64,000 nt of DNA from positions 50,571,918-50,635,917 of the forward strand of contig CM055102.1 of the NCBI GenBank assembly GCA_029204225.1, given 5' to 3'. This stretch comes from Diphasiastrum complanatum. Taxonomy: Eukaryota > Streptophyta > Lycopodiopsida > Lycopodiales > Lycopodiaceae. Every line of letters begins with the position of its first letter. Positions within the stretch are counted from its first letter, which is position 1. Of the stretch, positions 3,739-39,831 are shown piece after piece. The notes beneath the pieces were generated by a model. The model was not told the DNA's origin. It saw only the letters and a program-made list of their open reading frames with translations, and searched no databases. Made by a program: the position numbers and the translations under genes.

Positions 3739-4039
3739 TCCATTCCTGGGGATTGTACAGGTTTTCACACAATTCGCTGTCACGTTTGATTGCATCCATA
3801 CGAAATGCATTCGTGATATCGCCATCATGTGAGCGACCTCCTCCCCATGCCTGTTCCTTACACCCTCTCGCATCATAGCGATATCGGCTTTACTTTCCCA
3901 GGATCACCATCATGCGAGCCCCTGCCTCTCCCTGCCTGACTCTGCCACTCTCTTGCATCATAGCGATATCATCGTTAGAGTTCTCAGTGTCTCTTCTGCT
4001 GTGTCTCTGTCCTCGCGTAGTTATAGATATTCGGCCTCA

Positions 4040-6737: not shown

Positions 6738-6744
6738 CTACATT

Positions 6745-7020
6745 ATTGTCATGGGGAAAGCTGCTATGTGGATCATTGTGTAGGCAAAGTGATTCAAACA
6801 ACCAATCCAGAACGAGTTTAAGATTGACAAAACAAATTTCAGAAAAAGCCCATCAATTGCTTCAGTGAATTGTCGCCTTAATGAATGGATCTTTGTTGCA
6901 TTCAAGATCATTGCTTCTCCCCATGGAAAGCTGCTGTTGGGAGGATCATCGATAGCCGCTTCATTCAAAATCATTGCCTTGCCCCATGCAATGCTATTGT
7001 GTGGATGATTGCAGGTAGCA
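6745..7020. repeat. Imperfect tandem repeat, about 55-110 bp units
   Basis: Phrases of the type CCCCATGGAAAGCTGCT followed by GGATCAT recur at about 6750, 6918 and 6975, each preceded by ATTCAAGATCATTG or a close variant in the later copies. The copies are too degenerate to define a period by eye. No coding function is apparent. Confidence 0.4.
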
Positions 7021-7435
7021 ACAACTCATGGAGGTAGATGAAAGAGTCAACATTTGTGTGGAAAAATGGATGATCACTGCTTCCTAGTCACACTCATGGT
7101 CCTCTCACAGACTCTTGAAAAGCCTCTTCTTGTAGGAACTAAGCTAATCCAAAGATGCGGAGGAATCAAACCTCCACCATCCAAACGGTGGGCCTAGATT
7201 CCAAGGTGGAAAGTGAGGCCCATGGTACTCTTATGCCCTCCGTAATGCTCATGCTCAGAGTTCGTGTGTATTTTGGAGGCACCTCCTCCCACAAATTTTT
7301 CAAGCAGACAGTTTGTAATGCCACAATATGCAAAATGCCTGTGACAACTGGATAACTAGCCTTTTCTGCCGGAATGATGGATCTGAAAGCTGGCTTAGTA
7401 GTCCATTCTACAGGAATCTCACCCTTCGCATGCAC

Positions 7436-7560
7436 CCTTCGCATTGAGCATTACGCAGGGCAAGGCCCGGGCCATCGGGCCTTCCGTGCAGTTTGGGGCC
7501 TGCCCTCGGGCAACGGCCCTCCCAGCACAGAAGGCCCTCGGGCAGGGCCTTCCCTCCCAC
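7436..7560. other. GC-rich GGCC/GGGC low-complexity patch
   Basis: About 120 bp are rich in GGCCC, GGGCC and GGGCCTTCC phrases and partly self-complementary. This is sharply more GC-rich than the flanks, and short ORFs on both strands through it follow from the composition. It may be a decayed insertion or part of the upstream region of the TFIIA-gamma gene. Confidence 0.4.
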
Positions 7561-7681
7561 GAACTACTTAAAAAAAAGAATTGTTTTATAGAATGCTCCC
7601 ATTCTAATTTTAACACTCTTGAGAAATTTATTTTTCTAACTATTTGATTGAAAGATTTGAAATGTAACACGCGGGGAAGGA

Positions 7682-7827
7682 CCAGGCCCCACGGTCACCG
7701 TAACGCGTCACCGTAACGCCAAACCTCCGCCAATCAGGAAGGGACCTGGGTCACCCGTAATGCCAAACGCCATCGTGTATACAAAGTTGTAGCCAATGTG
7801 ACCAAGGCGGGTGGGTACCTATATAAA
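7682..7827 (+). promoter_or_regulatory. Promoter of the TFIIA-gamma gene
   Basis: A TATATAAA box lies at 7820-7827, about 60 bp before the ATG at 7887. Upstream, GTCACCGTAACGC occurs twice in tandem around 7694-7720, and a variant GTCACCCGTAATGC lies near 7751. CCAAACC or CCAAACG follows the second and third copies. The repeats and TATA spacing are seen; a regulatory role is inferred. Confidence 0.6.
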
Positions 7828-7886
7828 GCACAGACGCTGGCCCAATTGCAACAACCAACAAGAAAAGAAGAAGATTTATCGCTCTC

Positions 7887-8321
7887 ATGACGAATAGAAG
7901 GAGAGGGAGAGGGAGAGGGAGCGGAAAAGCGAGAGATGGAGATGGAGATGGAGATGGAGATGGAGATGGAGGGCGAGAGGGAGAGACGACTCTCGAGCTT
8001 TATCGCAAGTCCTCGATCGGGAGGGGGCTGGTAGAGGCCCTGGATGAGATGGTGTTCAACGGCACCATTTCGCCGCTCTTGGCCGCGAAAGTGCTGAAGC
8101 AATTTGACAAATCCATTATCGAAGCGCTGCGGACAAAGGTGCACTCCAAGATCAGGTTCAAGGGCCATCTTGACTCTTACAGGTATTGTGACAGCGTTTG
8201 GACCTTCGATTTGAAGAACGCTAGCTTCAAGACGGACAATGGTGACGTGCAAGCAGTGGATCGTGTCAAGATTGTGGCCTGTGATGCAGCCTGCGCTGCG
8301 ATTAAATCACGGCAGCTGTGA
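7887..8321 (+). CDS. TFIIA small (gamma) subunit
   Basis: This 144-aa protein is the gamma subunit of general transcription factor TFIIA, which with the alpha/beta chains stabilises TBP on TATA-box DNA in the nucleus. Residues from about 36 follow the family closely: LELYRKSSIGRGLVEALDEM, NGTISPLLAAKVLKQFDKS, KGHLDSYRYCDSVWTF and RVKIVACD. The family is normally about 105-110 aa. Here a 34-residue N-terminal extension is added: an Arg/Gly tract from GAGAGGGAG repeats, then (Asp-Gly)5 from GGAGAT repeats. The ATG at 7887 is the only Met before the core and sits about 60 bp from a TATA box. The gene is uninterrupted, without introns, and GC-richer than its surroundings. It could be an expressed retrocopy. 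Confidence 0.9.
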   Translation: MTNRRRGRGRGSGKARDGDGDGDGDGDGGREGETTLELYRKSSIGRGLVEALDEMVFNGTISPLLAAKVLKQFDKSIIEALRTKVHSKIRFKGHLDSYRYCDSVWTFDLKNASFKTDNGDVQAVDRVKIVACDAACAAIKSRQL

Positions 8322-9059
8322 GCGTCGCAGCAAGTGCTTTGGGGGGAATTCATTAACTAGGTTTATGATTTTGTTTCGAGCGATAGACACGACGGATTAA
8401 CGGAAGATGAATTATCGACATCTTTCAAGCAAATTTCTGAGAGTCATTTTTGTGGTTGCGTATATACCTGGTTAGAGAATACGGACCTGAAACAAGCTAT
8501 TATGAATCGTGATATCAGCTCAAAGTTGCTTCTCGAAGTTTATGAGTCTTTTCTCTCCTCTTGACCTAGAATAGACCCTATGTGAATGAATTCTGCACGA
8601 TTTTGATAATTTGTTTTTAGTTTACACGTGGCATGTACTTTGTTTATGTTTTAGCTGAGCCTAGCTTGTCAGACTGGTAACGAGATTTTTCTCAGAAAGA
8701 TTTTGTGCCTATGAAATCTGAAATGTGCCATCTGCATCCCATCTTAAAGTTGGCCAAGTTTGTGAGTTTTAGCATCAGATTACTGTCACAACATACATCA
8801 AGTGTCACATTCTTAGGGAACAACAAGAATTAATATGAAGGAGATCGTTCCATAGACTTACAAACATAACATTAAAGGTGTGATAATGAAGGGAGATGTG
8901 TCGATCAAGCCCAAGTACACTTTGTTAGTAAGCAACTGGCAAAGCAGGTCAACAGGCAATTCACACATTGCTAGAAGCCTAGAAGGTACTTAGATGAATT
9001 TTATTTTATGCTATTAAGTACTCTACATTATTTAAGGAGAGAAATCTTAATCTTGAAGG
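8322..9059. other. 3' flank of TFIIA-gamma, nothing recognised
   Basis: This AT-rich sequence has no supported ORF. The first few hundred bases presumably include the 3' UTR of the TFIIA-gamma gene. Confidence 0.4.
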
Positions 9060-9700
9060 TGCAAAGAATTTCAGATTTGTGATCGGGCAAAGAGTTTCAA
9101 TTTTGTAGCTCCCTTTTGATGTTCACAGTCTCTACAAGTGGAAGATTATTTAAGCTTTGCATGTTTCAAAGAAAATTTGATTTTTGATAAAGCAATAATT
9201 TATTATCGGTTTATCTCAAATTCTGTACAGCTCTAAAGTGTGGTAAGGGGAGTGTTATAATATTTTAGTAGTAGTCACTTCAACATGATTAGGAACCAAG
9301 AGCCTTGACTTTCAAAGAAGAACAATGTTGATTCAACCATTTTTCCTACTATTATCACTATTATATACAAGAAGACTAAACCTTAAAACTTCAAAGAAGT
9401 GCAAAGCTGTGATTTGACAAAGAGCATCAACTTTGTAGCTTGTAGCTCCCTTTTTCTTATGTTTAGGTTTAGGTGAGTTTCTACAATATGCGCGTGAAAT
9501 GGATCTCCTCTTTCTTTTGAGTAAATAGTACAAAGATTTTTGAAGTTCACTTCATTTCTACAAAATTGGACTTAAAGGAATGAAGAATAAAGTGTGTAGA
9601 AGTGGAGGATTATATAAGCTTCACATAATTGAGAGAGAAGTTTCACATAATTTGATCCTTGATAAATTAGTTCAATCCATTTATAGCAAGAGGTTGTATC
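9060..9700. repeat. Diverged direct duplication
   Basis: Two diverged copies of the same sequence lie head to tail. GTGATCGGGCAAAGAG then TTTTGTAGCTCCCTTTT near 9080-9120 matches GTGATTTGACAAAGAGC then TTTGTAGCTCCC near 9410-9455. AAGTGGAAGATTATTTAAGCTT near 9137 matches AAGTGGAGGATTATATAAGCTT near 9601. No coding content is seen. Confidence 0.45.
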
Positions 9701-15688: not shown

Positions 15689-16129
15689 TGATTTTTGCCT
15701 TGCCTGCAAAAGAATCTTCCCTCCTGCCCTCTTCATTCTGATCGTGGTTCAACTATATTTTGGTATGTATGATAGAAGAAACTTGGTGTTTTAGCACCAA
15801 AAGGTGAAGTTTTTGCTGGTGAGCCGCTGATTGATGTGATGAGAGTAGGACTGGATCAATACGCAGTAGTATGATGAAATGGAGTGGATTGGAAGTCATG
15901 TGCATAAAAAATCGCTAGAATCGGATGTCTGATAATTTTTGTTGCAAACTTCATAAAACCATCATAATTACAAATGAAATAATAATTCAAGAGAACAAAT
16001 GATTTTTGAAACTCGAAATCCCATTGAAATACAAAATAGCTTAAATTATATTTGTACATTCTTTTTTTTTAAAGTATATCTTGTAAGGAAATTTCACTAA
16101 TGCCTCTCAATTCAGAACTTGACATATTC
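15689..16129. other. Possible left flank of the 16-31 kb element
   Basis: Sequence 3' of the minus-strand putative transposase gene. No terminal inverted repeat matching the right flank near 30.6-31.4 kb was found by eye. Confidence 0.3.
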
Positions 16130-16570
16130 TCAACACTCGTTTTCAGCTGATGAAGTGGAAAACCCGTCTTCTTCATCAGAGTCAACTGGCATGTCTTCCT
16201 CAGAATCCGCATCTAATGTTGACAAAAAACCTTGTAAATTAGCTTTTCTCTGTTGATGACGAGTGGAGGATGATGGTTTTTCAAGTAATCCAAGTCTTTT
16301 TCTCAATATAGATATTGTTGACTTTCGTAGATGATTGGTCATTGTTAATTCAAAATTAAATGCCAAAACATCTCCATCCTGTAGATTCAAATCGTCGACT
16401 CTTGGTTGATTTTTTGGCAATCTCTTTCTCTTGCCCTTTGGATCTACTTGCAACATTTCGAGTTCGTACATTCTAAAAAAAACATTCGTTAAAGTGGTGT
16501 GCAACCAATGGACACGTAGTACTTTTGTTTGATTGCTATTTTGAATAAAACCAAGTACTTTGGCAATCAT
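16130..16570 (-). pseudogene. 3' part of DUF7869-like putative transposase gene
   Basis: This minus-strand segment starts in frame at IAKVLGFIQN, continues VLRVHWLHTT, then a basic stretch (KGKRKRLPKNQ) and an acidic Ser-rich tail (DADSEEDMPVDSDEEDG), and ends at a stop at 16130-16132. It continues the C-terminal domain broken off at 23116 (GSLVALLASENNEGHPF). Together they give a G-x-x-V-A-x-L...HPF...AKV...VHW pattern that I associate with the C-terminus of DUF7869-type eukaryotic proteins. The gypsy fragment 16571-23115 separates the two parts. The joining is inference, but the match of frame and motif order is good. Confidence 0.6.
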
Positions 16571-17063
16571 CACTTTATAGGCATAGGTTCCCCATTTCGT
16601 GGCAAATACTATCTTGTGCTGGTCCTGAGAGGCTATCTTCACCTGTTTGTAGCCGCTGAAGCCGTCTAAAAAATTGTAGGCCTTGGCGCCGCCTACTCTA
16701 TTGAGGACACTTTTCGTAAATAATAAAGAAAAATGATCTTTTTTGGTGACTGCATTTAGCGCCTTCAGATTCACACAAATCTGCATTTTGCCATTCTTCT
16801 TGGGTACTATAACTATCGGTGATACCCATTCTGTGTGCTCGATTTCATAGATGAAATCTGCATCCATCAGCTTTTGCAACTCCTGCTTGATCAGCTCAAT
16901 ATAATTCAGGTTGCAGCAGTAATAACGGCTTACCTTGGGGACTGCTCTGTCCACCAAGGGTATGGTGTGTTGGACTACTGTTGGTGGAATGCCCTTCAGG
17001 TCACTGTAACTCCAGGAAAAACAGTCTTTATATTCCACCAACAACAATCGTAGTCTCTTGAAC
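16571..17063 (-). pseudogene. Gypsy A reverse transcriptase, N-terminal part
   Basis: The frame reads EYKDCFSWSYSDLKGIPP, IPLVD, DADFIYEIEHTEWVSPIVIV, PKKNGKMQICVN, LNAVTKKDHF and FLDGFSGYKQ. These are Ty3/gypsy RT motifs before the catalytic Y/F-x-D-D, which is absent because the fragment ends first. It is interrupted on its 5' side by insertion of the copia-type element at 17064; the frame resumes at 21643. Confidence 0.85.
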
Positions 17064-17764
17064 TGTGAAGAATTGCCAAAAATTGGCAAATCTAGCTTGA
17101 TCAAAAACCATGTAGAATAGTGTAAATTGTGTACACAAGTGGGTCCCACACATGTGAGGCCATGATGCCACATGGGAAACCCATCCTAATGTAGGTTAGG
17201 TCAAGTCAAGAGAGTTGGTCATGTCTATTTGGTGGTCATCCCTACTTTATAGGACCTACACCTAAGTTTAAGGTGAAAATTTGACCAACTACCTACCTAC
17301 CAAGCATAACTCTAGGAAATAGACTAGGGTTTCATTTTAGGTCAAGGAGAGTGAGTTAACTTCCTTATTACATGCTGGAAATCCACCTAACTTCAAGAAG
17401 GAAGTCGAATTTGCTATGTATTCCCTCTCTCCATAGTGAGAAGATAGAAAATTTTTGGAGCTCATTGGCAATCTCAAGCTAGTTCACTATGTACATTGAG
17501 TTTTTGTGATCCAAATGAAACCAAATCAATTTCTACTTGTTTCTCAGGTTGAAGGCCATACTACAACCTGTATTACACACGTGTGGGCTCGGATTTCAAT
17601 GTTGATCAATGCTTTTGATTGCTAATGCTTGTTGTTTGTCAAACTGCCAATCTAGATCAACTTTTTTGTGTCTAGTTTTTTGATAGATTATTAAGCAAGC
17701 ATCCAATCACTCTTGTGGATCTTTTGTAGATCCATTTATGGTCCTAAAGTACAGTACTTTCACA
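17064..17764 (+). repeat. 5' LTR of copia-type element
   Basis: This 701-bp copy starts TGTGAAGAATTGCC and ends TTTCACA, next to the primer-binding site. It contains the palindrome CACACGTGTG near 17576. Confidence 0.95.
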
Positions 17765-18200
17765 TGGTATCAGAGCCAAGTACAAGAGCATAAGCCATTG
17801 ATCTAATGCAAATCCATTTTTAACAAGTTTTGGTGCTAAAAACTAGTCTTGAGAGGGCAAGCTAGAATCTTGATTTTGGTGAGGAGATTTGATCCCAAAC
17901 TTGGTAGGGGTCCAAATCCATACTGTCCACATGTGTGGGCACCTCTGAACCTGCATTTAATGCATGGTATTTATTTGATCCAAAAAAATTCAATTTGTGA
18001 GCTATTGGTGTAATTTTTGGCGGAGATCCTAGGATAATCTACCAAGATCATTTGCCATTGATTAGATTTGAATTTGTTTCATGGAATCTAATTAATCTAG
18101 GCTGAGTTCAAGTCCTATTAAGGTTAAAAACAGGTCTTGAAAGTACACCAAGAAGGAAGAAAGAGATTAAGTCATTTTTTTGTCCAAAAATAGCCAAAAT

Positions 18201-18548
18201 TGGCAAGATTTGATTGTAAGTAGATTTCACATCATCTTATCTTCATTCCAACTTTGTGAGGGAGTGCTAGAACTGAGATTATAAGTCCATTTTTTGGATT
18301 AGAAATCTAATTTGAGTGAGAAACTACAAGAGAGAGACCTTAGTGAGTTTCTAGAGACAATCAAATCCATTTCTTGGCAAGATTTGTTTGAAAGTAGTTT
18401 TCACTTCATCTTATCTTCATTCCAACTTTGTGAGGGAGTGATAGAACTGTGATTATAAGTCCATTTGTTGGATTAGAAATCAAATTTGAGTGAAACACTG
18501 CAAGTGTGATACCTTTGTGAGTTTCAAGTCAATCAAATCTATTTCTTG
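18201..18548 (+). repeat. 173-bp tandem duplication in the copia leader
   Basis: Two units beginning TGGCAAGATTTG (18201 and 18374) lie between the primer site and the Gag start. They share CTTATCTTCATTCCAACTTT, GAGGGAGTG and ATTATAAGTCCATTT with scattered changes. Repeated leaders are also seen in the related element at 50.0-55.6 kb. Confidence 0.85.
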
Positions 18549-18569
18549 TTTGTAGAAGTCACTAGTGAG

Positions 18570-20492
18570 ATGGGATCTGCTGGAGCATACCTTCTAGAAG
18601 CTAGTGAGAGGTTGAATTCTACAAATTATGCTATTTGGAAGGCTAGAATGGAGTCACTATTGGTGCTCCAAGACCTTTATGAGTTCTTGATTGAAGATGA
18701 AGATGAACCTCTAGGTGCACAGGAGTTAGCTAGATACAAGAAGAGATCTAGGCTTGCACTTCATTGTGTGAAGATGAATGTGAGCAATGATTTGTTGAGA
18801 GAAGTATCAGCTTGTACTAATGCTAAAGAGGCTTGGGAGTCTTTAAAGTCAATCTATGAGTCTAGCAACACTTCTAGAGTTCTTATGCTTAGAAATCAAA
18901 TTTTGCAAAGCATGAGGAGAAGTGAGGAGAGTGCACAAGATTATGTACTCAGAATCAAGTCTCTAAATAGGGAGTTGGCTTCCATTGGACAGAAGATTCA
19001 TGATGGAGAGCTTGTACAAATTGTCCTTAATGGTCTAGGAGATGACTTTGCAAATTTGCTCCAAAGTTTTGCCATCCAAGACACTTTGCCAACTATAAAA
19101 AAACTTCACAGTGTATTAGTGGCTGAAGAGTGTAGGATGCTCCATGCAAAATCTAGGATGAGTTCCTTGTCATTGCAGGATGGTGATGAGAAAGCCAATT
19201 TCTCATTCAAGGGCAAAAAGAAGACCAATGGAAAGAAGAAGCATCCAAAGGAGGCCAAAGAAGAGGATGATGCATCAAGCTCAAAGGACAAGTCAAAGCA
19301 AAAATGCTTCTTTTGTGGAAAGAAGGGGCATTATGCATCTGAATGCTACAAGAGGCTAAGAGCACAAGTGGAGGAGGACAAACAAGGAAACCTTGCAAAG
19401 GAGGAGGAGGAGTATGAAGTAGATGTATTCTTGATGGCATCTACATCCTCACCAACAAGCAATAGCAATTCAAGAGACAATTGGTGGATTGACAGTGGGG
19501 CTAGCTCCCACATGTCTTGTGAAAAGGACTTTTTCTCAACCTTACACTCATTCAATGATGCTAAAAAGTTTGTCTTTACTGCAAATGATGAAGAGTGTAG
19601 GATAGATGGTGTTGGCACCATATCTTTGTGTGTAGAATCCTCAAAATGCATGGATCTAGAAAATGTCCTTTATGTACCATCAATCACCAAGAATATGCTT
19701 AGTGTTGGTCTACTCTTAGAAAGTGGTTTGGATGTCCACTTTAAGCATGGTGTTTGCTTCATCTTGAAGAATGATGTTTGCATTGCAAAGGGATTTAAAC
19801 ATGGAAGATTGTTTAAGTTGGAAGCTAGTGTTGCTTTTGAAAGAATGAGCTTGGCAAAGGAGGAGATCACTCAAGAGGAGATCTTGGCAAAGTGTGATTT
19901 TGCTTGCATTGAGGAGGAGCATCAAAAGGAGGAAGATCTTGAGGATCAGCCTCAAAGCATGAGAGTTCCAAGGGAGTCCTCAATGACAATGGCCGAGTCA
20001 TCAAATTGCATGCAAATTGTCCATTCAAGTGTGCATCTTGCAAGGGTGGTGAGCATTGGAGAGTCTACTATCTTTGAATACTTTTTGGAAAGTAGTAGTA
20101 GACATGAGGTGACTTGTTTCTTATCTTTAAGATCCATGGTGTTTATTACTTTGTATGACAAGACAATGAAATGGGATGCTTTGAAATCTACATTTGTTGT
20201 TGATAAAGCAATTTCATTGGATAACTATTTTTGTAATAGTTTGAATAGAGTCATAAGAGATGAAACATCATTTTTTTTGGAAATCTTTGTGTCCACATGC
20301 TTTGTGCATGATCATTCCAATGTAAGGACCAAAGATTATCCTATTTCAATGATAGGAATAATGGTAGTGTTTTGCTCTTCAAGTAGAGATTGTAGAATCT
20401 ACTTGTTTTCAGCCAAAGAATTTGTCAATGGTGGAAATGTGATCTTTCAAGAGTGGAAGATTTGTAAACTTGAAGAAGCACCTTTGGATTAA
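18570..20492 (+). CDS. Gag-protease polyprotein with unknown C-terminal extension
   Basis: Translation probably starts at the ATG at 18570 (MGSAGAYLLEAS); the open frame upstream to 18546 has no ATG. Residues 1-200 are a copia Gag (ERLNSTNYAIWKARMESLL, EAWESLKSIYE). A zinc knuckle CFFCGKKGHYASEC (CX2CX4HX4C) lies near residue 246. An aspartic protease site WWIDSGASSHM lies near residue 304, followed by the usual LENVLYVPSITKNMLSV. Where GAG-pre-integrase should follow, the protein instead continues for about 200 residues of Glu-rich and then hydrophobic sequence that I do not recognise. A second short frame (20517-20726) lies downstream. The protein is intact, and the protease keeps D-S-G. 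Confidence 0.9.
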   Translation: MGSAGAYLLEASERLNSTNYAIWKARMESLLVLQDLYEFLIEDEDEPLGAQELARYKKRSRLALHCVKMNVSNDLLREVSACTNAKEAWESLKSIYESSNTSRVLMLRNQILQSMRRSEESAQDYVLRIKSLNRELASIGQKIHDGELVQIVLNGLGDDFANLLQSFAIQDTLPTIKKLHSVLVAEECRMLHAKSRMSSLSLQDGDEKANFSFKGKKKTNGKKKHPKEAKEEDDASSSKDKSKQKCFFCGKKGHYASECYKRLRAQVEEDKQGNLAKEEEEYEVDVFLMASTSSPTSNSNSRDNWWIDSGASSHMSCEKDFFSTLHSFNDAKKFVFTANDEECRIDGVGTISLCVESSKCMDLENVLYVPSITKNMLSVGLLLESGLDVHFKHGVCFILKNDVCIAKGFKHGRLFKLEASVAFERMSLAKEEITQEEILAKCDFACIEEEHQKEEDLEDQPQSMRVPRESSMTMAESSNCMQIVHSSVHLARVVSIGESTIFEYFLESSSRHEVTCFLSLRSMVFITLYDKTMKWDALKSTFVVDKAISLDNYFCNSLNRVIRDETSFFLEIFVSTCFVHDHSNVRTKDYPISMIGIMVVFCSSSRDCRIYLFSAKEFVNGGNVIFQEWKICKLEEAPLD

Positions 20493-20936
20493 CACCTTAT
20501 TCAATTCATTGATGGTTTGGAGTCAAGTCAAGTGGAGGAGCAAGCTCAAGACCCAAGGACTCCAAGAAGAATCTTGAGTATCAAGATGGAGCCATCAAGG
20601 TTCAATCATATGGATCAAGCAAGACAAGTTGTCTTTGGCAACATTATTTATGCACTTAATATTTTAATTGATGTATCTTCAAGTGCACAAAATGCCTTGG
20701 AATCCATGGCTTGGCATGATGTTTAGTTTTGAAGTGTGCTACATGTATATAGATACATTTATGGAACATCTTGTAAGGGATCCTCTAAGAGGTGGTGAAA
20801 GATCCTTCATGGACATCATTCTCTATTGGAGTCTCAAAAGTTCCTTCTTTGTAGCTGGATTTTTTAGACACTTCTAAAAGCTTTCATTGATCTATCAAGA
20901 GAGTTGTAAATAGATCAAGCTAAATTTGAGGAGGAG

Positions 20937-21637
20937 TGTGAAGAATTGCCAAAAATTGGCAAATCTAGCTTGATCAAAAACCATGTAGAATAGTGTAAAT
21001 TGTGTACACAAGTGGGTCCCACACATGTGAGGCCATGATGCCACATGGGAAACCCATCCTAATGTAGGTTAGGTCAAGTCAAGAGAGTTGGTCATGTCTA
21101 TTTGGTGGTCATCCCTACTTTATAGGACCTACACCTAAGTTTAAGGTGAAAATTTGACCAACTAGCTACCTACCAAGCATAACTCTAGGAAATAGACTAG
21201 GGTTTCATTTTAGGTCAAGGAGAGTGAGTTAACTTCCTTATTACATGCTGGAAATCCACCTAACTTCAAGAAGGAAGTCGAATTTGCTATGTATTCCCTC
21301 TCTCCATAGTGAGAAGATAGAAAATTTTTGGAGCTCATTGGCAATCTCAAGCTAGTTCACTATGTGCATTGAGTTTTTGTGATCCAAATGAAACCAAATC
21401 AATTTCTACTTGTTTCTCAGGTTGAAGGCCGTACTACAGCCTGTATTACACACGTGTGGGCTCGGATTTCAATGTTGATCAATGCTTTTGATTGGTAATG
21501 CTTGTTGTTTGTCAAACTGCCAATCTAGATCAACTTTTTTGTGTCTAATTTTTTGATAGATTGTTAAGCAAGCATCCAATTACTCTTGTGGATCTTTTGT
21601 AGATCCATCTATGGTCCTAAAGTACAGTACTTTCACG
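20937..21637 (+). repeat. 3' LTR of copia-type element
   Basis: This 701-bp partner of 17064-17764 is preceded by a purine-rich tract. The terminal base pair is CG instead of CA. Confidence 0.95.
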
Positions 21638-21642
21638 TGAAC

Positions 21643-23115
21643 TGTGTGGGTGTTAACTACTCTCGCACATGCACTAGCTTGTCTTCTTCACCTGGTTCGA
21701 CAAGATTCATTGGTTGTGTTCGTGCAGGTCTCTCAAAGACTTGTTCCGCTGGTGCCTGACTTTGATCAGGTTCTCTTTGGGTTTGTGGCATCATGATTAC
21801 CACGTCGTCCAAGGTGTAAATCTTGAAAATCTCAGGCATCTCATGAATTGGCGCTCGTCGAGATTCCTCTTTTAGCATATTGATCTTAGCTTGAATGGTC
21901 ATTTTTTGATTTTCTGTCACCTATGTAGAATATGACATTGTATCTGAGTCTATCTGGATTGACTTCATGGAATCCAACATTTTCTTTTAACCCATTTTTG
22001 TCATTTCGATGGATTCATCCTTGTTGTCTTTCACCGGGACTGCCGTGACATTCGCCTCATGGTTGCGAATATCAAAATCCACTATAGCTATCGCCTCTTC
22101 AGGTAGATCACTCCATCAGATCACCTGGTTGTAGTGTTGCTTCAACTGATTCTTCTTATTCGCAGGTGCCTTGGGTGGATCGATTCTTGAGACTTTTGCC
22201 ATAGCAGACTTTTGTGGTGGTTGAGTTGGTACTTTCTTGGTTCTGTAACAATCTGGGTCCATAAGATGTAGGACCTGTTCATCAGTCAGCTCAATCTCCT
22301 TACTATAAGTTAGAGCATGTTGCCAAGGGACTAGATCATCGTTCATTGGGTTCTCAATAGGCTCCGCTGACAGCCATGCTACGTTTATCATATTCACCCC
22401 AAATGTGATTGGTGTGTCCATGGTGTAACATTTGGGTGAAGATGTACTAGGTTCTGAATCTGATTCATATTGACATGTCTGGTAGTCAATAGTTGCTAAT
22501 GCATCTGTCCATATCACAACATCCATCTTTGAATCATAGTGACCTCCCTTGGCTGGCCTTGGGCGATCAATCGTGTGATCTGTCGTGGATGATCCGTCAT
22601 CAGCTTTGGGTGCAATAAGTTTCACTGCCCATGTGGCTGGATCAACCTTTACAACCTGTTCTCTATTCTTGAAGGTGAGTTTTCCCATACCCCAGTTGTG
22701 TATTACTTGCGCAGTCGTCAACCACGATCTTCCCAGTAAAACATGGTATGTAGATGGAGATTCAAGTATATCTATGACTACAAAAGTAATCACATACTGC
22801 ATGGCTGCTATCTTTACAGGGATATCGGCAACTACACCTTTTGGTTTCACACATGATTGATCTAGCAGCTTGATGGCAAATCTTGTTGGCTTCAACCCTT
22901 GCAAACCCCATTTTTCATATAAAGTGGTGGAGATCAAATTGACACCCGATCCTCCATCTACCACTACTGCCTCGTCCTCGTATCTCTTGTGTTTCATGGG
23001 CAAAGTGATGTTGTGTTCCTCACTTTCTCATGCTGCTCCGATTTGGAGGACATTACTTGTTTCTTCATAGCCCGTACAATATATGGGCTCAGGCGCTACT
23101 GGCTCCTCATCCGCT
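21643..23115 (-). pseudogene. Gypsy A protease and linker region
   Basis: The frame 22116-23003 starts with HKRYEDEAVVVDGGSGVNLIST, the gypsy retropepsin site with D-G-G instead of the usual D-S/T-G. VLLGRSWL and VIHNWGMGKLTF follow. Downstream come a Pro/Ser-rich linker and a segment with YTLDDVVIMMPQTQ (21657-21920) that leads into RT at 17058. A few stops separate the frames, so the copy is dead. Confidence 0.8.
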
Positions 23116-25823
23116 TAAATGGATGTCCTTCATTGTTTTCTGAAGCTAGAAGTGCAACAAGGCTTCCAATTTGGATTTCATTCAAATCACCGCGCCATTT
23201 CATTTTTGCAGCTTTTACACTTTGTCTATTCTTCCTTGAGCCCACATAAATTTCACATTCCTCACCTTGCACAAGCTGCAGGAAATCATTATCTCGAGGA
23301 AGATCTGAAGGTTCGACATTCGTAGTTGATGTTCCTAATTTATGAGGCCAATGAAATTCATCAGTTGTTGATGTATGTTCGAGATTGAGCAAACTGATTT
23401 TTTGTTCCTCGAAAAAGTCCATCCACCAATGCTGATCAAACTCATCAAAAAAATAATAAGCTGCTTGAATACTTGATTCCAAAAAATTTAATGAGGCAAA
23501 TGGATCAATCTCACGATGTTCTCTTTGCGCCTTTTGTTTTTCTAGCAAGGACTTCAAGGGAGACAACACAACAAGCTTGACTTGAGTCGATGGAATGTTA
23601 AGCAAAAATCGAACTTCTTCAAGAGGTAGCCACGAAACTGAATTTGAAAATAGTTTGCCCCATAATAATATAATTTCTGATTCGTTACATTTGATTTTAA
23701 ATTGGTGCTGAAAGCTAATATCATTAATATTAGCTACGCATCGCTCTGTTTTGTTAGACGCCTTAACATAATCACGAAAATCATATGTGTGTCTGATTAA
23801 TGACACGTTTGGCTTTGGCACATACGATTCCTCAACAATGCTTTCTTGCGTCTCAACCTCTTAGAAAAGCAATTAAACATTTGATCAATTTGATCGTGGG
23901 TATGTCCTACCAACAAAAATCCTATTTTTACTTTTTTAAAAAAATTTCTCCACTAGCATTGACAAGTATGCCAAAACATTTTTATCTTTATTTTTCCTAG
24001 CAGTGTTGTCAAGCTGCAAATAAAGTATTTCTGGAAGATTTTCACCAAATTCGCAAATTATCTTATGTACAATGGTGATCGTCAAATTTGGATCATTTCA
24101 AACATTGGGATAAATAAAAAAGACCTTGGACTCCAAAGTGCCATTAAACACAAGTGCTCCAACGAGATGAACCTGAATAAAATCTACCTCGTTCAAATTG
24201 TTGGGTACTCTGACAAAATGAGGCAACATTGTTTTCTTCTGATCCATGCCATCAATAACAAGTCCCAGATATTTTTGTGGACATTCCAAATATTTCTTTT
24301 GATGCTTGGCCAACTTTTGTCTTTCAATTGTTTGTTGATCTCTGTGCAGTGAAGAGCTTTTGTAGCATCCACTGAAAATACAATGATTCACTTATTCAAT
24401 AAAATAAAGATCATACCATAATGGTGTTCAAAAAGACTGCAACATAATGGTGTTAAAAAAGACTATTACATAAATTTTTTCAAAACAGAAAGCATTAAAA
24501 TGAATGACAAATTTGATTAATATTTACCTTTCTTGTCATTGGTCTTTGCAAGTTGTTTTGCAGACTTTAACAACTCGCAAGTGGAGCATACTGTCATTTG
24601 TGATTTTTTGGGAATCTTTACCAGTCCAAAATCTCTTTTCCAAATTCTAAGAAAATATGAGTAACTCAAATAGGGAACATTTTTTGTTTTTGCAAACACT
24701 TTGTACATCAAAATATTTCTAATTTTGTAAAATTATCCGGCAAGTGAAAATATAAGAAATTAGGCAATTTTTCTCCGTGCACATCTATGAAATACTTTAG
24801 CCAAGCAATTGGATTTAAAGCATCTGGAGAAACAGTTTGACCCTATAAGGATCCTCGTAATGTTGGGTCTTTCTGAAGTCATGCATGCATTCATTAAAGC
24901 CGTGAGTTTCCGATTGCGTGAACTGCTTTGTAAGCTTTGTGACAAACCTCCAAAGCATTTAAAAAATACGAAAATGAATTTTTGTCCGGCCTCACTATTG
25001 TACACAAATAGTAATTTCTCTCATCCTTACTTCGTGAAAATAAGTTTGATCTTAATTCTTCAATTCCTCTGATATTCAGCTTTTGCAAACAACAGGATGA
25101 GCAGCAAATAATATTCTGTACCTTTCAAATCTCAGATTTTGTAATCAATTGTTTTTGACGATTCCTTAAATTAGGTGAGGATCTCAAGTTTCTCTTGTAT
25201 TTTTCTTTTTGTTTTGAGTCTGATCTATAAATTGAACTTGTGACACTAGTAGGTACTTGAACTGGTTGAGAAGGTCGTGGAATTTCATGACTGGGAATTC
25301 TGGCTCCAACCCCAAGATATTTTGGACCCTCAGAAGGCTCTAAATTTTCAACGAATATAGCCCTTGTAGATTTAACACGACGAACATCACTTTGAGAAGG
25401 TCTCCTACGAACATGAGAAAAGCTTGAACGTCGCAGATCAACAGACTTACGTGGATCTGTTGATTTACTAGAATCAGTAACTGAGTGAATTGAAGCTTTT
25501 GACTCACCACTCAATGATTCAACTTGTTCAAAATAACAATGTTCTAGTTGTGCTGAGTCTGTATCTGAAGAGGAGGACGAGGTTGAAAGATTTGATACAA
25601 GCTGAGTTACAGACGTCATTTCTTGAAAAGTACTTGCTTGAGGAATTTCAGATGATGAACGGGTAAATGATGACGATGCCACATCGTTTACCAAAATATG
25701 TTCAGATTCAGGAGTGGCTTTATAAAAAAAGCTTTCATTGGGAATGTCAGATGAAGATGTTGCACTTGTTGCAACATATTGAGTTACAAGTACTGGAATA
25801 GAAGAGGTAGAACTACTTGACAT
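23116..25823 (-). pseudogene. 5' part of DUF7869-like putative transposase gene
   Basis: Exon 1 (start 25823, MSSSSTSSIPV) encodes a Ser-rich, probably disordered N-terminus with Arg-rich patches. Later exons carry motifs I associate with the uncharacterised DUF7869 family: IAWLKYFIDVHGEKLP with HLPDNFTK (about 24720-24830), YLSYSYFLRIWKRDF then CSTCELLK (24540-24700), IDGMDQKKT (about 24250), LYLQLDNTARKNK (about 24010), and VGHTHDQIDQMF (about 23890). A GT-AG intron of 156 bp lies at 24372-24527. The D-x-x-D, LDNT and GHTH-x-x-ID motifs suggest an RNase H-like fold acting on DNA. Breaks seen: a TGA near 24085, a shift in the A/T tract near 23935, and another near 23865. It then ends at the gypsy insertion. 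Confidence 0.65.
24372..24527 (-). other. Intron in DUF7869-like gene
   Basis: The donor GTAAATATT follows DKKG, and the acceptor TTTTCAG precedes the exon carrying IDGMDQ. The length of 156 bp is typical of the introns in this window. Confidence 0.7.
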
Positions 25824-26338
25824 CGTAACCTCAAAAAAAAATAGCTAAGCATAGAATCGTTCAAATAGTTAACACCACACTAAATGTGCTCCTCAAACAT
25901 AGCTGCAACCTATGCTGGTCATAGAACAAATAAAATCCTATGCGAACCTCAATAGACGTACACAGAAAAACCAACTAAATGCAAATGAGCAACAAGCCTA
26001 AAAAGTAACTGGTTAATAAAAATTTCCGGCGGCTACCATGCCTTAGATACTATTTGGCAGCATTTTTAGGGCTAGGGTTAGGGTTAGGTTTGGACTGTCC
26101 AGACTAATACTCGAGGTCAGCGTGGGGTGAGGTGAGTTTGGCAACTTGGTCCCGAAGTAAGCTGGAGGATTGGTGTGAGACGGGGGTCTCGAAAAAAAAT
26201 TATTTAAGGACTATAGTCCAAGCATAACTCACCTCATTTGTGAATTCAGAAGCCCACATGCTGCCAGAATATCGCTACGACCAAGTCACGGCTTTCTATA
26301 AGATTTTGCATACGTTCTCGCTTCCAGATTTCTTGACG
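25824..26338. other. Divergent intergenic region of the two-gene element
   Basis: This separates the minus putative transposase gene from the plus ParB-like gene. It holds degenerate palindrome half-sites (TAAGCATAG near 25845, CCTATGCTGGTCATAG at 25909) and a short GGGTTAGGGTTAGG phrase near 26077-26090. A possible plus-strand leader exon ends at a GTAAG donor at 26339. Confidence 0.4.
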
Positions 26339-26451
26339 GTAAGATTATTGTTATTTTCTAGCTTTACTCTATGCTTAGCATGGATAAGAAATTCTTGCAT
26401 TAGAAAATATTCATATTTTAATTTGTATTCATCTTCTTGCAACATGGGTAA

Positions 26452-26922
26452 CCTATGCTCAGCATAGGTGCCTGCACCAGTCCTCTCCTTTAATCTATGC
26501 TGAGCATAGGTTGTGCTCGGGTCCTTAGTAATATCCTATGCTCAGCATAGAATTCCGGCGTTATTTCTTTATTCTTACCACGGTTCGACCTATGCTGAGC
26601 ACAAGTTGCATCTCTGGTCCTCTTCCAACCTATGCTTAGCATAGGTTAGCAAGCAAATAGCGAAGACGTCCTATGCTCAGCATAGGTTGGACAAGAGCGC
26701 GCGTGTAACGACCTATGTTGAGCATAGGTACTATGTTGAGCATAGGATGTCTTCGCAATTTGCTTGCTAACTTATGCTGAGCATAGGTTGGAACAGGACC
26801 AAAGATGAAAGCTATCCTCAACTTAGGTCGAAAGGAGGTTAGAATTGAAGAATCTCGCCTCCGTCCTATGCTAAGCATAAGTTGTTAGTAAGGACTCGAC
26901 CACAACCTATGCTTAGCATAGG
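26452..26922. repeat. Cluster of 11 palindromes CCTATGCTNAGCATAGG
   Basis: Copies start at 26452, 26494, 26535, 26589, 26629, 26670, 26712, 26730, 26771, 26865 and 26906. Each is an 8-bp inverted repeat around one variable base; five are perfect at all 16 arm positions. Further degenerate copies lie at 26369, 27541, 29273, 29327 and 29412, all inside the plus gene. Conservation of the palindrome while the spacers differ points to a protein-binding site rather than a simple satellite. Confidence 0.95.
26587..26832. repeat. Fold-back (inverted repeat), about 100-bp arms
   Basis: The left arm (about 26587-26686) and right arm (about 26731-26832) are reverse complements with scattered mismatches. 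For example, GTTAGCAAGCAAATAGCGAAG near 26644 pairs with CTTCGCAATTTGCTTGCTAAC near 26751. The spacer is about 45 bp. The arms carry several of the 17-bp palindromes. Confidence 0.8.
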
Positions 26923-27153
26923 TCGCTACTCGTATTTTCTTGTTTTACAACGCTTTGTCTCAGAAAAGTGATCCTTTTGAGATGTTTTAATAAGAAAATA
27001 TGTTGAATTTGTAGTTTTGTTTTTTAATTTTTTTTCACAAAAATGGCTTGTTTTATTAGAGTTTTCAGCATTTTCATTAAGATAGCATTTTAAATTTTCC
27101 TAAAATGTCTTTTTTTTTTTGCAGATTTTCAATTGTCTTTGATAATTTTCAAA

Positions 27154-30100
27154 ATGTCGAGGATTTCTTTTAAAATTTTGGGGAAATCTCAAGATATTCC
27201 GTTAATAGATAAGAAAAAATTCATGCACTATTTCACCAAAGGGGTCAACAACACAAAGCTTTCGGAGCTTTTTATTCATTTAGCTGAGAAGCCTGGCAGA
27301 GGAGACTCACAATTCAAAGTTCAAGAAAGATTGCTTGTTGATCAACCAGATGAGGATCAAGAAGAAGGTTTTGTGAATATACTGGTAAAGGAGACGGATA
27401 AATCTCATTCTATTTTCATTCTGAACAAGACTATGATAAAGATCTGACTTTGTCAGGATGAGGCCATCAAAGCCTATTTTGATAAAGCTCTAGTTACTTT
27501 GGTGAGTAATTATTAAATAAATTTTTAATCATGTTTGTTTCATGCTTAGCATAGTTGTTATTAGATATAAAATTATTTAAACTTTTAGATTTAAGCTTTT
27601 AGTCATTATATTTTAAACTTGATTTTTGTTTCTATCCAGAGCATGAAGCAATGCTTAAAAATGGTTTTAGCTGCTATTGCTGAGAATAAAGATCCGGTCT
27701 ATTCATTACGGAGTTCAAAAGGTGTATCTATTGGACCTCGCAAGCCCGCTTCTACCACTGCTCGGGTCACAAAGCCGGCCTCTGAAAATGTTGAGGATGA
27801 AACCGTAGCCGTCTCTCATCCCAAAAAAAAAAGATCTCATAATATTTCTGAGACTTTGCCCACTAGACCTAAGTCACGCCCAAAGACCATGGCTACACAT
27901 CGCCATAAGTCCATCCCTTCTGCTGAAAGCAAAAACGCCACCGAACCATCTTTGTCGCTACCTGGTGCATCCATCCGCCCATTACAAGACAGCTCCGAAC
28001 TTGCCAAATTAAGAAAGGATATCCATAAAACAAAAAAAAAAAAAAAAACAACTTTAATTTTAGACTTAAAACAGTGTGATAGGCCACCTGTAGACCCAAT
28101 AACAGGAGGAAGGCCAATGGAAGTTAGAGAGCCTAATGAAACATATGTACATAATTTAAAAATAAAATTTAAAGATCATACACAAGTCATAGTTACTCCC
28201 TTTGTTGTTTTGGTTGATCCCAACGAATGCAACGATGTTGCAAATTTTGATTTTTCTTTATTAGATTCATATCATTTTTTTGTTCTTGGGGGGATACACG
28301 GTTTACAAGCTCAAAAACAATTATCTCAAGAGTATCCCCATATCCCAAGCTTTCGAACTGTGAGTGTCATTGCATTTGCTGGCCTGAGAGTGGAAGAAGC
28401 GAAATTATTGGCTTGGGACCACAATATTGATCAACCGGATGAAGATGACCGTGATACAAAGATTTCGTTTTTTTCACAAAGAATACATGAGATTCTCGAA
28501 AGCAGGAGATGTGAATCAACTTGAGCTGAAAGCATTATGTGTTCAAGAGACAGGCCTGTCTTTTGATTCAAAAAATCCTATGTAGAGCCTTACTAAATAT
28601 GATAATTTTTTTCAGCTTGCTTTTCGCAGTGGCCATGTAATTTGTTTGGCTATGCTCGTCATGGAATGCTCTGGTCATAATATATGTTATAATTTTCTTA
28701 AATTTTTTTATCAGGCTACAATTTTGCACTCAATTTTAATATTGGTTAAATTCTTTATCAATTAAATTTTATTTTCTATTTCAGGTTTGGGCCCTTGTTG
28801 ATAAATTTTTTGATAAGTAAGAAACTTTTCAAATAATAGGCCAACCTGCTCAGGGTGTCTCAAAGTCCAAAAAAAAAGTTGTGAGCACTGAAACTCTGAA
28901 GCCAATCTCTACTGAAATTGAAATATCAGAGTGGAAGAATATGCAAGGGATTAGCTCTTCAGAGCTAATAATAAGTGTTCTTTCAAAAGTTGCCGATGTA
29001 TGGGAAAAGAATTTCAGAGGTAATAATCATAATTTAAATATCTATTTTCATGTTACCTTTTTTAATAAAATGATTTTCATAATTTGGTTGGATTTTTAAC
29101 AATTATATTTTTTAAATGCAGGCACAAATTATTTATGAAAGTTCAAGAAGCCCTTGTGAGAGGGTTAAATTGTCAAGATTTCGATGAGTGCCAAAGGCTT
29201 TATCCTCTGAGCAGCCGAAATAAAGCCCTAAGTCCATTTTTTATTTTGTTTAGAGACATGGTATTTATTTCACCCATGCTTAGCATAGGTGCTTATTAAT
29301 TGTTTCTTTTCTATATTCTATGTCTCTTATGCTAAGCATAGTTTTTTTTTTTATTTAATTATTATTTTTTGATAAGTTAAGTCTCCTATTCTATTTTATA
29401 TTTTTTTGTCTCCCATGCTAAGCATTGTTTTTTCCTTTTCAGTCTCTCGAAGACAAAAAAAAACAAAGTTCTGAGACATGTTCTGAAGGCAAAAACAAAA
29501 AAAAGGGACAGGAAGAGATTGGCACAAGGTGAAACCATTGCGGAGGAGGATTCATTAGAGACCTATCTTTCCAAAAGTGTTGGTGATCAACCATGCTTTT
29601 ACTCTGTTGAGGAGGGCGATTGCAGAGAAATTTCAAAATTTTTAAGAAAAAAGCCTTATACACTCTGCATCGTCTTTCAGATGAAAGAATTATTAAATGA
29701 TGATATTTTTTTCAAATTCACTGAAATCCATAGTTTATGCAGGGCTTTCTTGAAGTCACAACTTCTCCAATTTGGAGAGTTGTTATTTTTCATTCTTTTT
29801 GACAGTCAACATCAATACCTTTCTATAATGCGGGAATTGAGAATGTTGTGTGGTAAGTTCTAAAGTTCCTGATTAATCAAGTCATATTTTAATTCATAAT
29901 TTTATTTTAAATTTTCTATTTTAAAATTAAAATTTTAAATTGATTTTACTTGTAATGTTCCATGTCAAGTACAGGCCCAATGTCAAGAACTCGGGAGGAG
30001 CTCGACTTTGCAATGAAATAGAATACATAACCATCGGTTATTATTCTTTGGATAACAAACGTTCGATGTTGTATTATAACACTTCCGGACTGACAAGTTT

Positions 30101-30626
30101 TGGAAACTTGTTCCAATATCCAACTGTGACAAAGAATTAAAAAAATCCAATTACGGGTTCCGTGGCTTGTCCCTACCAAAAGCCACAACAATTAATTAAT
30201 CATTTAATTGATATTTTTTCTCACCTAGCTAATTGAGTTTTAGATTTATTTAGCGGTAGCGGCATACGAGCGCATATGCTATTCAGAAAGGCAGACATGT
30301 TTCTGTAGTAGATTTAGATACTAGTTTAGTTGATTTTTGTAAAAATGAGAATGAAATATCTTTCAATTTTGCCAAATGAATTATCTGAGATGGGAAAGAG
30401 TTTGGACAGCGAGGATACGATAATTCCCTTGTCCAAGGAACCTCAGCCTCTTGCTAGTGGAAACGTAGATGACACAGGAGAATTTGCTGATGTCTTGGTT
30501 AAAGATTACAATGTAGTAACTGTAGTCGAGGAAATTGTAGAAGAGGTGCCACTTGATAGTATAGTGGCTACTCAAAAAAAAGCAAAAGAAAAAGATGTAA
30601 ATGACATCGATGATTTTTCGGAATAA
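27154..30626 (+). pseudogene. ParB-like domain gene, decayed, multi-exon
   Basis: A first coding block (ATG 27154, MSRISFKILGK) leads to a 138-bp GT-AG intron (27502-27639, phase 0). The long block 27640-28490 follows: a basic, Pro/Ser-rich region with nuclear-signal-like PKKKR, then a domain with YHFFVLGGIHGLQAQKQL, IPSFRTVSVIAFAGL and VEEAKLLAWDHNID. That order resembles the ParB/sulfiredoxin-like fold (G-G/N-H-R...A, then D/E-E-A-x-x-L-A-x-x-x-N), although the usual N of GNH is Ile here. Later blocks lie at about 28510-28820, 28880-29020, 29130-29270, 29520-29850 and 30330-30626, the last an acidic C-terminus (VNDIDDFSE). Breaks: TGA 27445-27447, a shift near 28485, TAG 28583-28585 and TAA 28818-28820. 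It is divergent from the DUF7869-like gene. Confidence 0.5.
27502..27639 (+). other. Intron in ParB-like gene
   Basis: The donor GTGAGTAAT and an acceptor ending TCTATCCAG join the two coding blocks in phase 0. Confidence 0.7.
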
Positions 30627-31430
30627 AATTTTTTCTTTTGTTTTAAAAAATAATTGTGTTTTTATTTTTTGATGTATTGTGTTTTGAATTCTTTTTTATT
30701 GATTTAATATTTTTAAATTTATTTTTGAACGATTTAAAACTTAAAATTTGAAATATTTAAAAAAATTTAACATTGATAATTATTACCAAAAATTAAAATT
30801 GTAATGATTTGTCAAGTTTACAATATTTTAATTTTAGATGTATTTTTATAATATTTTTTGTAAAAAAAATATTGCTAAAAATTATAAGAAATGAAAAAAA
30901 AAAATTAGATTTTTTTCAGGGTGATTTAAATATTATCACAAATAATTTAATCACGAATATTGTGAACTAATTTTATTTGCGTTTATTTAATGTTTAAATA
31001 TCTAATAAACTTATGTGGGTGTAAGTTAAGATTTTCAAAATTTTAGAATTTCAAAAATTATTGATTCAAATTTTTAGCATAATTTAAAAAATATTATTTT
31101 TGATACAAGATTTGTAATTTAGAAAACTTTTTAAATTCAAAAAAAAAAACTATAACTTTTGTTTTTAGTAAGCAAATTTTTTTTTTAGGTATTTTAGTGG
31201 TTGTGTATCTAATGATTTTATTTTAAACAGTATTATTATTTAATATAACCTAATTTTAAGTTATTTATAAAAATCTATTGACCAAATTTTTGTAGTTTAA
31301 ATTATTTTTTGCAAAATACAGTATTTTTTGCAAAATACAGTATTTTTTTACCATTACAATATATTTATTTGAAGCATTTTAAATTTGGATACTTTTTAAA
31401 AAAAATTAATGAATTTAAAAAAAAATGGGT
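30627..31430. other. Very AT-rich noncoding stretch
   Basis: About 800 bp are dominated by A/T runs such as TTTAAAAAA and ATTATTTTT, without ORFs. It holds the 3' flank of the ParB-like gene and, if the element has a right end before gypsy C, that end. No inverted repeat to the left flank was found. Confidence 0.5.
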
Positions 31431-37658: not shown

Positions 37659-38860
37659 CGTGGATCGTTCCTAGTGGTGGTAGATCAACAATGATCCTGA
37701 TTTTTGATAGGTCTGTGGCGATCCCGTGTCTAGATACTATATGGTCAAGAATCAAGCTATGTGTAACCCAAAATTGACATTTTTCTGGATTCAATGAGAT
37801 CTGGAATTTGCAACATTTTTGTAGCACCTTCTCCAGATTGGATAAGTGTTCAGAGTCTGGTCCATGCACGCATAGATCGTCCAAGAAAATTTTTAGAAAT
37901 TTCTACAAATACTCTTTGAATGTCGTCTGCATGACTCGTTGGAAGGTGCTTGCGGCATTACAAAGTCCGAATGGCATCACCTTATAGGCATAGGTTCCTC
38001 ATTCTGTGGCGAATGATGTCTTATGTTGGTCTTGGGGTGCTATCTTCACTTGGTTTTTTGGTGACAGCGTTTAGCGCCTTCAGACTCACACAGATCCGCA
38101 TTTTGCCATTCTTCTTGGTTACTATAACTATCAATGATATCCATTCAGTGTGTTTAATTTCGTAGATGAAATCTGCATCTAACATCTTCTGCAATTTCTG
38201 CTTGATCAGCTTCATGTAGTTCGGGTTGCAATGGTAGTAACGATTCACCTTGGGGACTGTTCCATCCACCAAGGGTATAGTGTGTTGGACTACTGTTGGT
38301 GGAATGCCTTTCAGGTCACTGTAACTCCAAGAAAAACAGTCTTTATATTCCACCAACAACGATCGTAGTCTCTTGAGCTGTGTGGGCGTTAATTGCTCTC
38401 CCATGTATACGATCTTTTCTTCGTCACCTGGCTCGGCAAGGTTTATGGGTTGCGTTCGCGCAGGTCCTCCAAAGACTTGTTTCGCTGGTGTCTGACTTTG
38501 ATCAGGTTCTTGCTGGGCTTGCGGCATCATAATTACCACGTCGTCCAAGGTATAATTCTTGAAGGTCTCAGACATCTCGTGAACTAGTGCTGGTCGAGAT
38601 TCCACCTTCAGCATATTGATCTTAGCTCGACTGGCCATCTTTTGATTTTCCGTCATCTGAGAAGAGGATGACGCTGTATCAGAGCTCATCCTGATTGACT
38701 CCAAAGAACTCAACACCTTCTTTTTGCCGCTTTTTGTCATCTTGATAGATTTGTCCTTGTTGTCTTTCTTCAGAACTGGCATGACATTCGCCTCGTGGTT
38801 GCGAATATCAACATCCATTGCAGCTAAAACTTCTTCGGGTAGATCACTCCATCGGATCAC
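37659..38860 (-). pseudogene. Gypsy B reverse transcriptase and linker
   Basis: 38021-38860 encodes a linker (TLDDVVIMMPQAQ) and the RT start (EYKDCFSWSYSDLKGIPP, HTIPLVDGTVPK, FIYEIKHTEW, KKNGKMRICV). A deletion removes the LDGFSGY region near 38050. The frame 37639-37884 resumes with the catalytic LDDLCVHG box and SLNPEKCQFWVTH, then breaks off into unrelated sequence at about 37675. Confidence 0.85.
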
Positions 38861-38879
38861 CTAGTTGTAGCGTTGCTTC

Positions 38880-39830
38880 AACTGGTTCTTCTTGTTCGTA
38901 AGTGCCCTTGGTGGATCTATCCTTGAAACTTTTGCCATAGTAGATTTTTGAGACGGTTGAGCTAATACTTTTTTAATTCCGTAACGATCTGGGTCCATGT
39001 GTTGTAGGACCTACTCATCAGTCAACTCAATCTCCTTGTTATAAGTCAGAGCATGTTGCCAAGGGACTAAATCATCATCCACTGGGTTCTCAATAGATTC
39101 CATTGATAGCCACGCTGCGTTTATCATATTCACTCCAAATGTAATTGGTGTGTCCATGGTGTATCACTTGGATGAAGATGTGTTGGATTTAGGATCTGAT
39201 TCATATTGACATGCTTGGCAGTCAATCGTTGCTAATGCATCCGTCCATCTCACGACATCCATCTTTGAATTGTAGTGACCACTCTTGGCTTGCCTTGGGC
39301 GATCTATCGTGTGATCTGTTGTGGATGATCCGTCATCAGCCTTGGGTGCAAGTGGTTTCACCGCCCATGTGGTTGGATTGACCTTTACAGTCTACTCTGT
39401 GTTCTCAAAGGTGAGTTTCCTCGTACCCCAGTTGCGTATTACTTGTGCAGTCCTCAACCATGGTCTTCCCAATAAAACACGATATGAAGATGGAGATTCA
39501 AATATATCCATAACTACAAAGGTGATCACAAACTGCATGCCTGCTATTTTTACAGGGATATCAGCAACCACACCCTTCGGTTTTACACAGGATTGATTCG
39601 CTAGCTTGATGGTGAATCTTGCTGGCTTCAATCCCTATAAACCTCACTTTTGATACGAAGTAGTGGAGATCAAATTGACATCGGATCCTCCATCTACCAC
39701 TGCTGCCTCGTCCTCAAATCTCTTGTGTTTGATTGGCAGGGTGATGTTGTGTTCCTCACTCTCCCATGTTGCTCCAATGTGGAGGACGTTACTAGTCTCT
39801 TCGTAGCCCGTACAATATATGGGCTCTAGC
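38880..39830 (-). pseudogene. Gypsy B protease region
   Basis: The frames at 39392-39631 and 39164-39361 carry VLLGRPWL, VIRNWGTRKLTF and DALATIDCQACQYESD. Just upstream (about 39660-39705) the same strand reads AAVVDGGSDVNLIS, the retropepsin site again as D-G-G. Sequence is collinear with gypsy A. Confidence 0.8.
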
Positions 39831-39831
39831 G

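Follow-up and report, generated by a model that had tools for sequence, protein, structure and literature searches.

A probable decayed DNA transposon of a club moss, with divergent DUF7869 and putative ParB-like methyltransferase genes around a palindrome array

Layout of the locus

We analysed a stretch of 64,000 nucleotides from the club moss Diphasiastrum complanatum (assembly GCA_029204225.1, contig CM055102.1, positions 50,571,918 to 50,635,917 of the forward strand), hereafter the window, which holds what is probably the remnant of a DNA transposon (Table 1). Two intron-containing genes point away from each other: the minus-strand gene is a DUF7869 gene, and the plus-strand gene fuses a ParB-like domain to an N6_N4-type methyltransferase. 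Between their presumed start codons (ATG at about 25823 on the minus strand and at about 27154 on the plus strand) lies an array of the palindrome CCTATGCTNAGCATAGG, of 17 base pairs (bp). An earlier reading of the sequence alone had described two such genes around a cluster of palindromes, and we found the arrangement as described, with 11 sites in the cluster. It had also called both genes decayed, which is borne out by frame breaks, in-frame stops and a retroelement insertion; the two extreme ends of the element are lost as well. The earlier reading had overlooked the portion of the plus gene that encodes the methyltransferase. The sequence-only reading placed the start of the element at 16130 because nested retroelements divide the DUF7869 gene, which continues only at 16567-16136.

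Table 1. Features of the element and their positions in the window
Feature	Position	Strand	Basis and remarks
Transposon remnant	15936..31430	.	Extent from blastn homology to copy L038 (947-9491)
DUF7869 transposase-like gene, 5' part	23117..25823	-	Intron-containing, frame breaks; spliced read; tblastn of P0003, P0004 and others
Same DUF7869 gene, 3' part	16136..16567	-	Past the retroelement insertion; tblastn of P0004 residues 721-850
Retroelement interruption of the transposon	16568-23116	.	Within the DUF7869 gene
Palindrome array: 11 sites of CCTATGCTNAGCATAGG (two mismatches or fewer) and one degenerate site at 26811	26452..26922	.	Between the presumed starts of both genes
ParB-like DNA methyltransferase gene, decayed	27154..30623	+	In-frame stops, frame change near 28460-28490, motif IV missing
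Exon 2 with ParB-like domain (core about 28048-28482)	27640..28636	+	Homologue P0001, E 1.3e-49; hhalign against phage ParB proteins
Methyltransferase exons, KP..L / DLFSGSG / GR...VD motifs (X and I)	29443..30350	+	N6_N4_Mtase E 2.7e-5; M.RsrI E 0.017
Five further palindromes (27539, 28649, 29273, 29326, 29412), 1 to 5 mismatches	27539..29428	.	In inferred introns of the plus gene

Copies across the genome

The palindrome is widespread in the host assembly (1.74 gigabases, 5176 contigs): allowing one mismatch at most, we counted 5717 places, against none for its reversed control. We compared 11 palindrome stretches of 10 kilobases (kb), which hold all 50 exact places listed (contig C1, 1.6 to 22.8 megabases), with nine control stretches taken at round-number positions on C1 and not matched for repeat content. 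The palindrome is absent from all nine controls. Using tblastn (E 1e-4), we found element genes in 7 of the 11 palindrome stretches and in none of the controls (one-sided p 0.004). Both genes diverge from the array in four stretches (L029, L036, L037 and L038; p 0.07), L030 and L032 have the ParB-methyltransferase gene only, and L035 has DUF7869 only; L034 is a remnant of the same array. The recurrence of the genes together with the palindromes, which the earlier reading had made decisive, therefore holds for at least one gene in these seven stretches and fails at three arrays and one control considered below. In L037, two arrays of the element's type (2986-3436 and 6692-7132) lie within 4 kb, each beside a piece of the ParB-like gene, an arrangement suggestive of two nested or duplicated copies.

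The copies also give the limits of the element. L038, the only full-length copy fetched, is 8545 bp long (947-9491), and homology between copies stops at the same points; its reading frames are split, and the other copies lack parts. Relative to it, the window remnant is about 170 bp short at the left end and about 36 bp short at the right end by blastn. Terminal inverted repeats were not found from the window alone and were recovered only from the genomic copies, as the 11-bp sequence AACAYGATGAC in inverted orientation. L029, L035 and L038 carry this sequence unchanged at their left ends, as do L029 and L030 at their right ends; the right end of L038 departs from it at one base. Eight more matches with one mismatch lie away from element ends in the 20 stretches (11 palindrome and 9 control). 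Given the 11-bp inverted ends, the several copies and a target duplication at one of them, we lean slightly towards the window element being a decayed copy of a multi-copy DNA transposon of the cut-and-paste type.

The minus-strand gene

The three DUF7869-type motifs of the sequence-only reading (IDGMDQ, LYLQLDNT and GHTHDQID) were all confirmed in the minus gene, whose spliced read matches DUF7869 (PF25273) with E 5e-39 and 134.3 bits, well above the curated cut-off of 26. The unspliced piece 23099-23860 taken alone reaches 17.6 bits, below this cut-off. The predicted structure model of a relative, P0004, resembles the RNase H-like cores of integrases and mariner transposases, and conservation extends to the acidic residues in IDGMDQ, QLDN and GHTH...D, which were assigned as catalytic by inspection. 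The model thus supports the earlier proposal that the partner gene encodes an RNase H-like transposase. Mos1 mariner and retroviral integrase share this predicted core with P0004, but at about 10% identity, and DUF7869 is a family of its own in an element with different ends. A search of a viral fold library had no match below E 0.001, and a scan of viral contigs with the DUF7869 alignment found no relatives.

A part of P0004, probably C-terminal (residues about 705-794, a guessed position), resembles BAH-domain chains in Foldseek (probability 0.97-0.99, E about 0.1), with no support from Pfam. If true, a transposase with such a chromatin reader would be notable.

The plus-strand gene

The spliced read of the plus gene gives a protein of about 900 amino acids that contains both GGIHG and VEEAKLLAWDHN, as reported from the sequence alone. 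The homologue of exon 2, P0001 (555 amino acids), shares with it VEEAKLLAWDHN and the motif GGxH (GGSH in P0001). Plain profile scans did not return ParB: the exon has no match in Pfam, NCBIfam, PHROGs or PDB, P0001 has none in Pfam or PHROGs, and a two-row profile of exon 2 and P0001 has none in PDB. Aligned by hhalign to a phage ParB set, this two-row plant profile scores 19.84, a value reached by none of 100 column-shuffled decoys (maximum 17.61). The target set comprised the first 135 residues of L005, a methylase of Wolbachia phage WO, and ten phage relatives; of these 11, ParB_N was checked in L005 alone (E 7.2e-6). We name the domain ParB-like because the signal is a remote one in hhalign and comes with no profile match, and the ParB-like nature claimed by the earlier reading is thereby only weakly supported.

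The spliced methyltransferase piece matches N6_N4_Mtase (PF01555) with 24.7 bits, just below the cut-off of 26.7, and a longer read scores 22.1 bits; the later exons align to phage ParB-methylases with an hhalign probability of 19% (E 0.0012). Motif IV is absent from the window copy, and ADIPY stands at its place in L029, L037 and L038; the phage protein L002 reads DLPY. A D-x-P-Y motif indicates methylation of adenine rather than of N4-cytosine, and from this motif we infer that the element's methyltransferase may be of the adenine type. The same order of domains, ParB_N followed by N6_N4_Mtase, is found in L005, which matches both Pfam families; it is a single open frame of 409 amino acids, whereas the plant gene is interrupted by introns and its much longer product is far diverged.

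Scans of viral contigs and of genome contigs with the ParB alignment found no relatives, nor did an alignment-based second protein search, and tblastn of P0001 against phages gave only E 3 to 7. Two proteins were dropped from the comparisons: SopB of the F plasmid, too distant as a ParB yardstick, and ORF13 of phage MM1, which is a C5-cytosine methylase.

The palindrome array

At up to two mismatches the palindrome has 13 matches in the window, all within 26452-29342, where 0.01 are expected (100 shuffles). Eleven of them form the array; the remaining two (29273 and 29326) lie in the plus gene. The other outlying sites (27539, 28649 and 29412) need three to five mismatches, and a tolerance of five also admits chance matches in other parts of the window. 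All five outlying sites fall in inferred introns, which represent 20% of the plus gene, a count made after the fact. Spacing in the array is close to 41 or 54 bp, mostly about 41, and the segment 26495-26921 is an imperfect inverted repeat of 427 bp. Phasing of the seven left-hand sites is close to 10.4 bp (R 0.92; p 0.0016 with free spacing, 0.017 under a stricter null). In L036 and L038 the inner intervals (41, 54, 40, 41, 42, 41, 40, 54, 41) form a perfect mirror; those of L035 are off by a few bases, the right half of L032 is unmirrored, and the window shows one additional site, at 18 bp. A set of 100 sites from eight loci and the window, each with two mismatches or fewer, has a core that hardly varies, in part because the sites were chosen in this way, and a free centre base. 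A scan of viral contigs for a pattern of two palindromes found no relatives.

These features bear on whether the array could be a structural or satellite-like repeat (a hairpin, a cruciform or a source of small RNA) that engages no specific protein. The long inverted repeat would suit such a role, as would the tandem units of a second array type in L031 and the fact that sites are conserved no more than spacers between mirrored arms. Within the left part, however, the seven sites are on average 87% identical and the spacers 27%, which is at chance (84 of 300 shuffles reach the observed gapped score). Since the spacers within this arm are at chance while the sites are alike, the array differs from a simple tandem satellite. 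Copies also share the spacing pattern, and we regard a purely structural role as improbable.

Adjoining the array, between the divergent genes, is a plant telomere-like stretch, AGGGCTAGGGTTAGGGTTAGG, at 26068-26088.

A transposon that may bind and methylate its own array

We favour, by a modest degree, a transposon whose ParB-like fusion protein would bind and methylate the array and whose transposase would be the DUF7869 protein. The step we hold most firmly is that DUF7869 would act on the element ends as a DDE/D-type transposase. Next comes the presumed binding of the palindromes, perhaps cooperatively, by the ParB-like domain, and then the presumed methylation of the DNA there, on adenine, by the methyltransferase domain. 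With least confidence, we propose that the array would be a control region shared by both genes, the outcome being self-recognition and control. Together, binding and methylation would act by setting expression, by marking the DNA of the element as its own or by working against silencing by the host.

Several observations weigh against this scenario. Concerning the transposase, the best Z for P0004 barely exceeds the 7 to 8 reached by models without a clear Foldseek match, and a plain Foldseek search of its model against PDB, before realignment, gave nothing below E 0.001. Concerning the ParB-like domain, neither the exon, nor the spliced read, nor P0001 has a Pfam match, ParB_N (PF02195) included; the hhalign comparison that outscores the decoys has a probability of 2.05%, its default alignment spans only 20 columns around GGxH, and the structure model of P0001, built from two sequences, is uninformative (predicted local distance difference test, pLDDT, 30.9). 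In the array, the phasing is weaker over all 12 sites (R 0.75 at 10.3 bp), and between mirrored arms the sites are no better kept than the spacers (70/84 vs 84/108, p 0.37). At the ends, L036 departs from the terminal sequence at 3 of 11 bases on its left side, a target-site duplication is readable at one copy only (AATA on both sides of L029), and L038 sits in a TC microsatellite. Three of the 11 palindrome stretches (L028, L031 and L033) have a different type of array, in which spacings near 28 bp are common (around 4500-5400 in each), and no DUF7869 or ParB-methyltransferase gene was found in these 10-kb stretches. Finally, a profile search more sensitive than tblastn, which covered 6 of the 11 palindrome stretches and all nine controls, reveals, in one control (L045, at 2983), a DUF7869 relative with no palindromes around it. 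Hence, the transposase family reaches beyond this element.

The three gene-less arrays may either be used in trans by the same protein or be a repeat independent of it; that of L031 is built in tandem units (repeat offsets 191, 376, 538 and 721 bp). If the former, a ParB-like adenine methyltransferase would load on the mirrored array and methylate the element, the gene-less arrays would exploit it or respond to it in trans, and the thousands of sites would make up one epigenetic system run by a transposon. We put this forward tentatively, as a possibility well short of probable.

The same arrays count against another role of the palindromes, as operators at which a transcription factor of the host or of the element would act on a bidirectional promoter, with the ParB-methyltransferase methylating the element generally. 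The position of the array between two divergent starts agrees with it, and so does the adjoining telomere-like stretch, since in plants such a stretch can be a promoter motif. A plain promoter of this transposon leaves the palindromes of gene-less arrays unexplained, and we judge this role unlikely. A little less doubtful, though still rather unlikely, is that the palindromes are internal or regulatory repeats bound by the DUF7869 transposase itself, the ParB-methyltransferase acting at other places or with no preference for sequence. Short repeats to which the element's own proteins bind are found in many plant transposons, and L038 has degenerate sites just upstream of its DUF7869 gene (4205 and 4275). 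The array is, however, in the middle of the element, away from its ends (4802-5238 in L038), and the further sites of the window are in introns of the ParB-methyltransferase gene.

Relation to known systems

In bacteria, parS sites are short palindromes clustered near the ParB gene, a layout that resembles the one seen here. The resemblance stops there: no ParA-type ATPase was found in the 17 window stretches scanned with Pfam, which is not a full search, and no role in partition is implied.

The closest parallel is Sola1-1_Ec32, a giant transposon of Ectocarpus which, in the parts of its description available to us (PMC12477816), encodes a ParB-like protein with an N4C/N6A-type methyltransferase on the strand opposite the transposase. 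Its authors suggest that this protein binds and modifies its own transposon. Like it, the element of the window is probably a eukaryotic DNA transposon and has such a gene opposite its presumed transposase, but Sola1-1_Ec32 comes from a brown alga, spans 21.5 kb and has a transposase filed as Sola1, whereas the element of the window comes from a club moss, spans about 8.5 kb and has DUF7869 and a palindrome array. Palindromic target sites of Sola1-1_Ec32 were not found in the same parts of the article. The protein architecture is thus already known in eukaryotic transposons, and the novelty suggested by the sequence-only reading narrows to the land-plant host, the DUF7869 partner and the conserved array, which look new. 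In the open-licence literature searched, we found neither the pairing with DUF7869, nor a vascular-plant host, nor a conserved palindromic array as candidate target; the name DUF7869 itself did not appear there.

A conserved array beside a ParB-methyltransferase gene, repeated genome-wide, would provide a concrete candidate for the sequence that such enzymes recognise. It would make binding, methylation and an effect on silencing directly testable, where previously self-binding had only been suggested (PMC12477816, in the parts available). It also probably places the ParB-methyltransferase accessory gene in a vascular plant.

Other observations

An ion-channel gene model of D. complanatum, P0002, has at its end a fragment of the methyltransferase exon of the transposon (82% identical to that of the window and 74-86% to those of L029, L032 and L038), and is either an annotation chimera or an exonised transposon. 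The retroelements that interrupt the DUF7869 gene are nested, a copia-type element lying inside a piece of another retroelement. The outer piece is 80-88% like the window sequence 37975-39851, and the copia-type element has 700-bp direct repeats (17064-17763 and 20937-21636) that are 98.7% identical.

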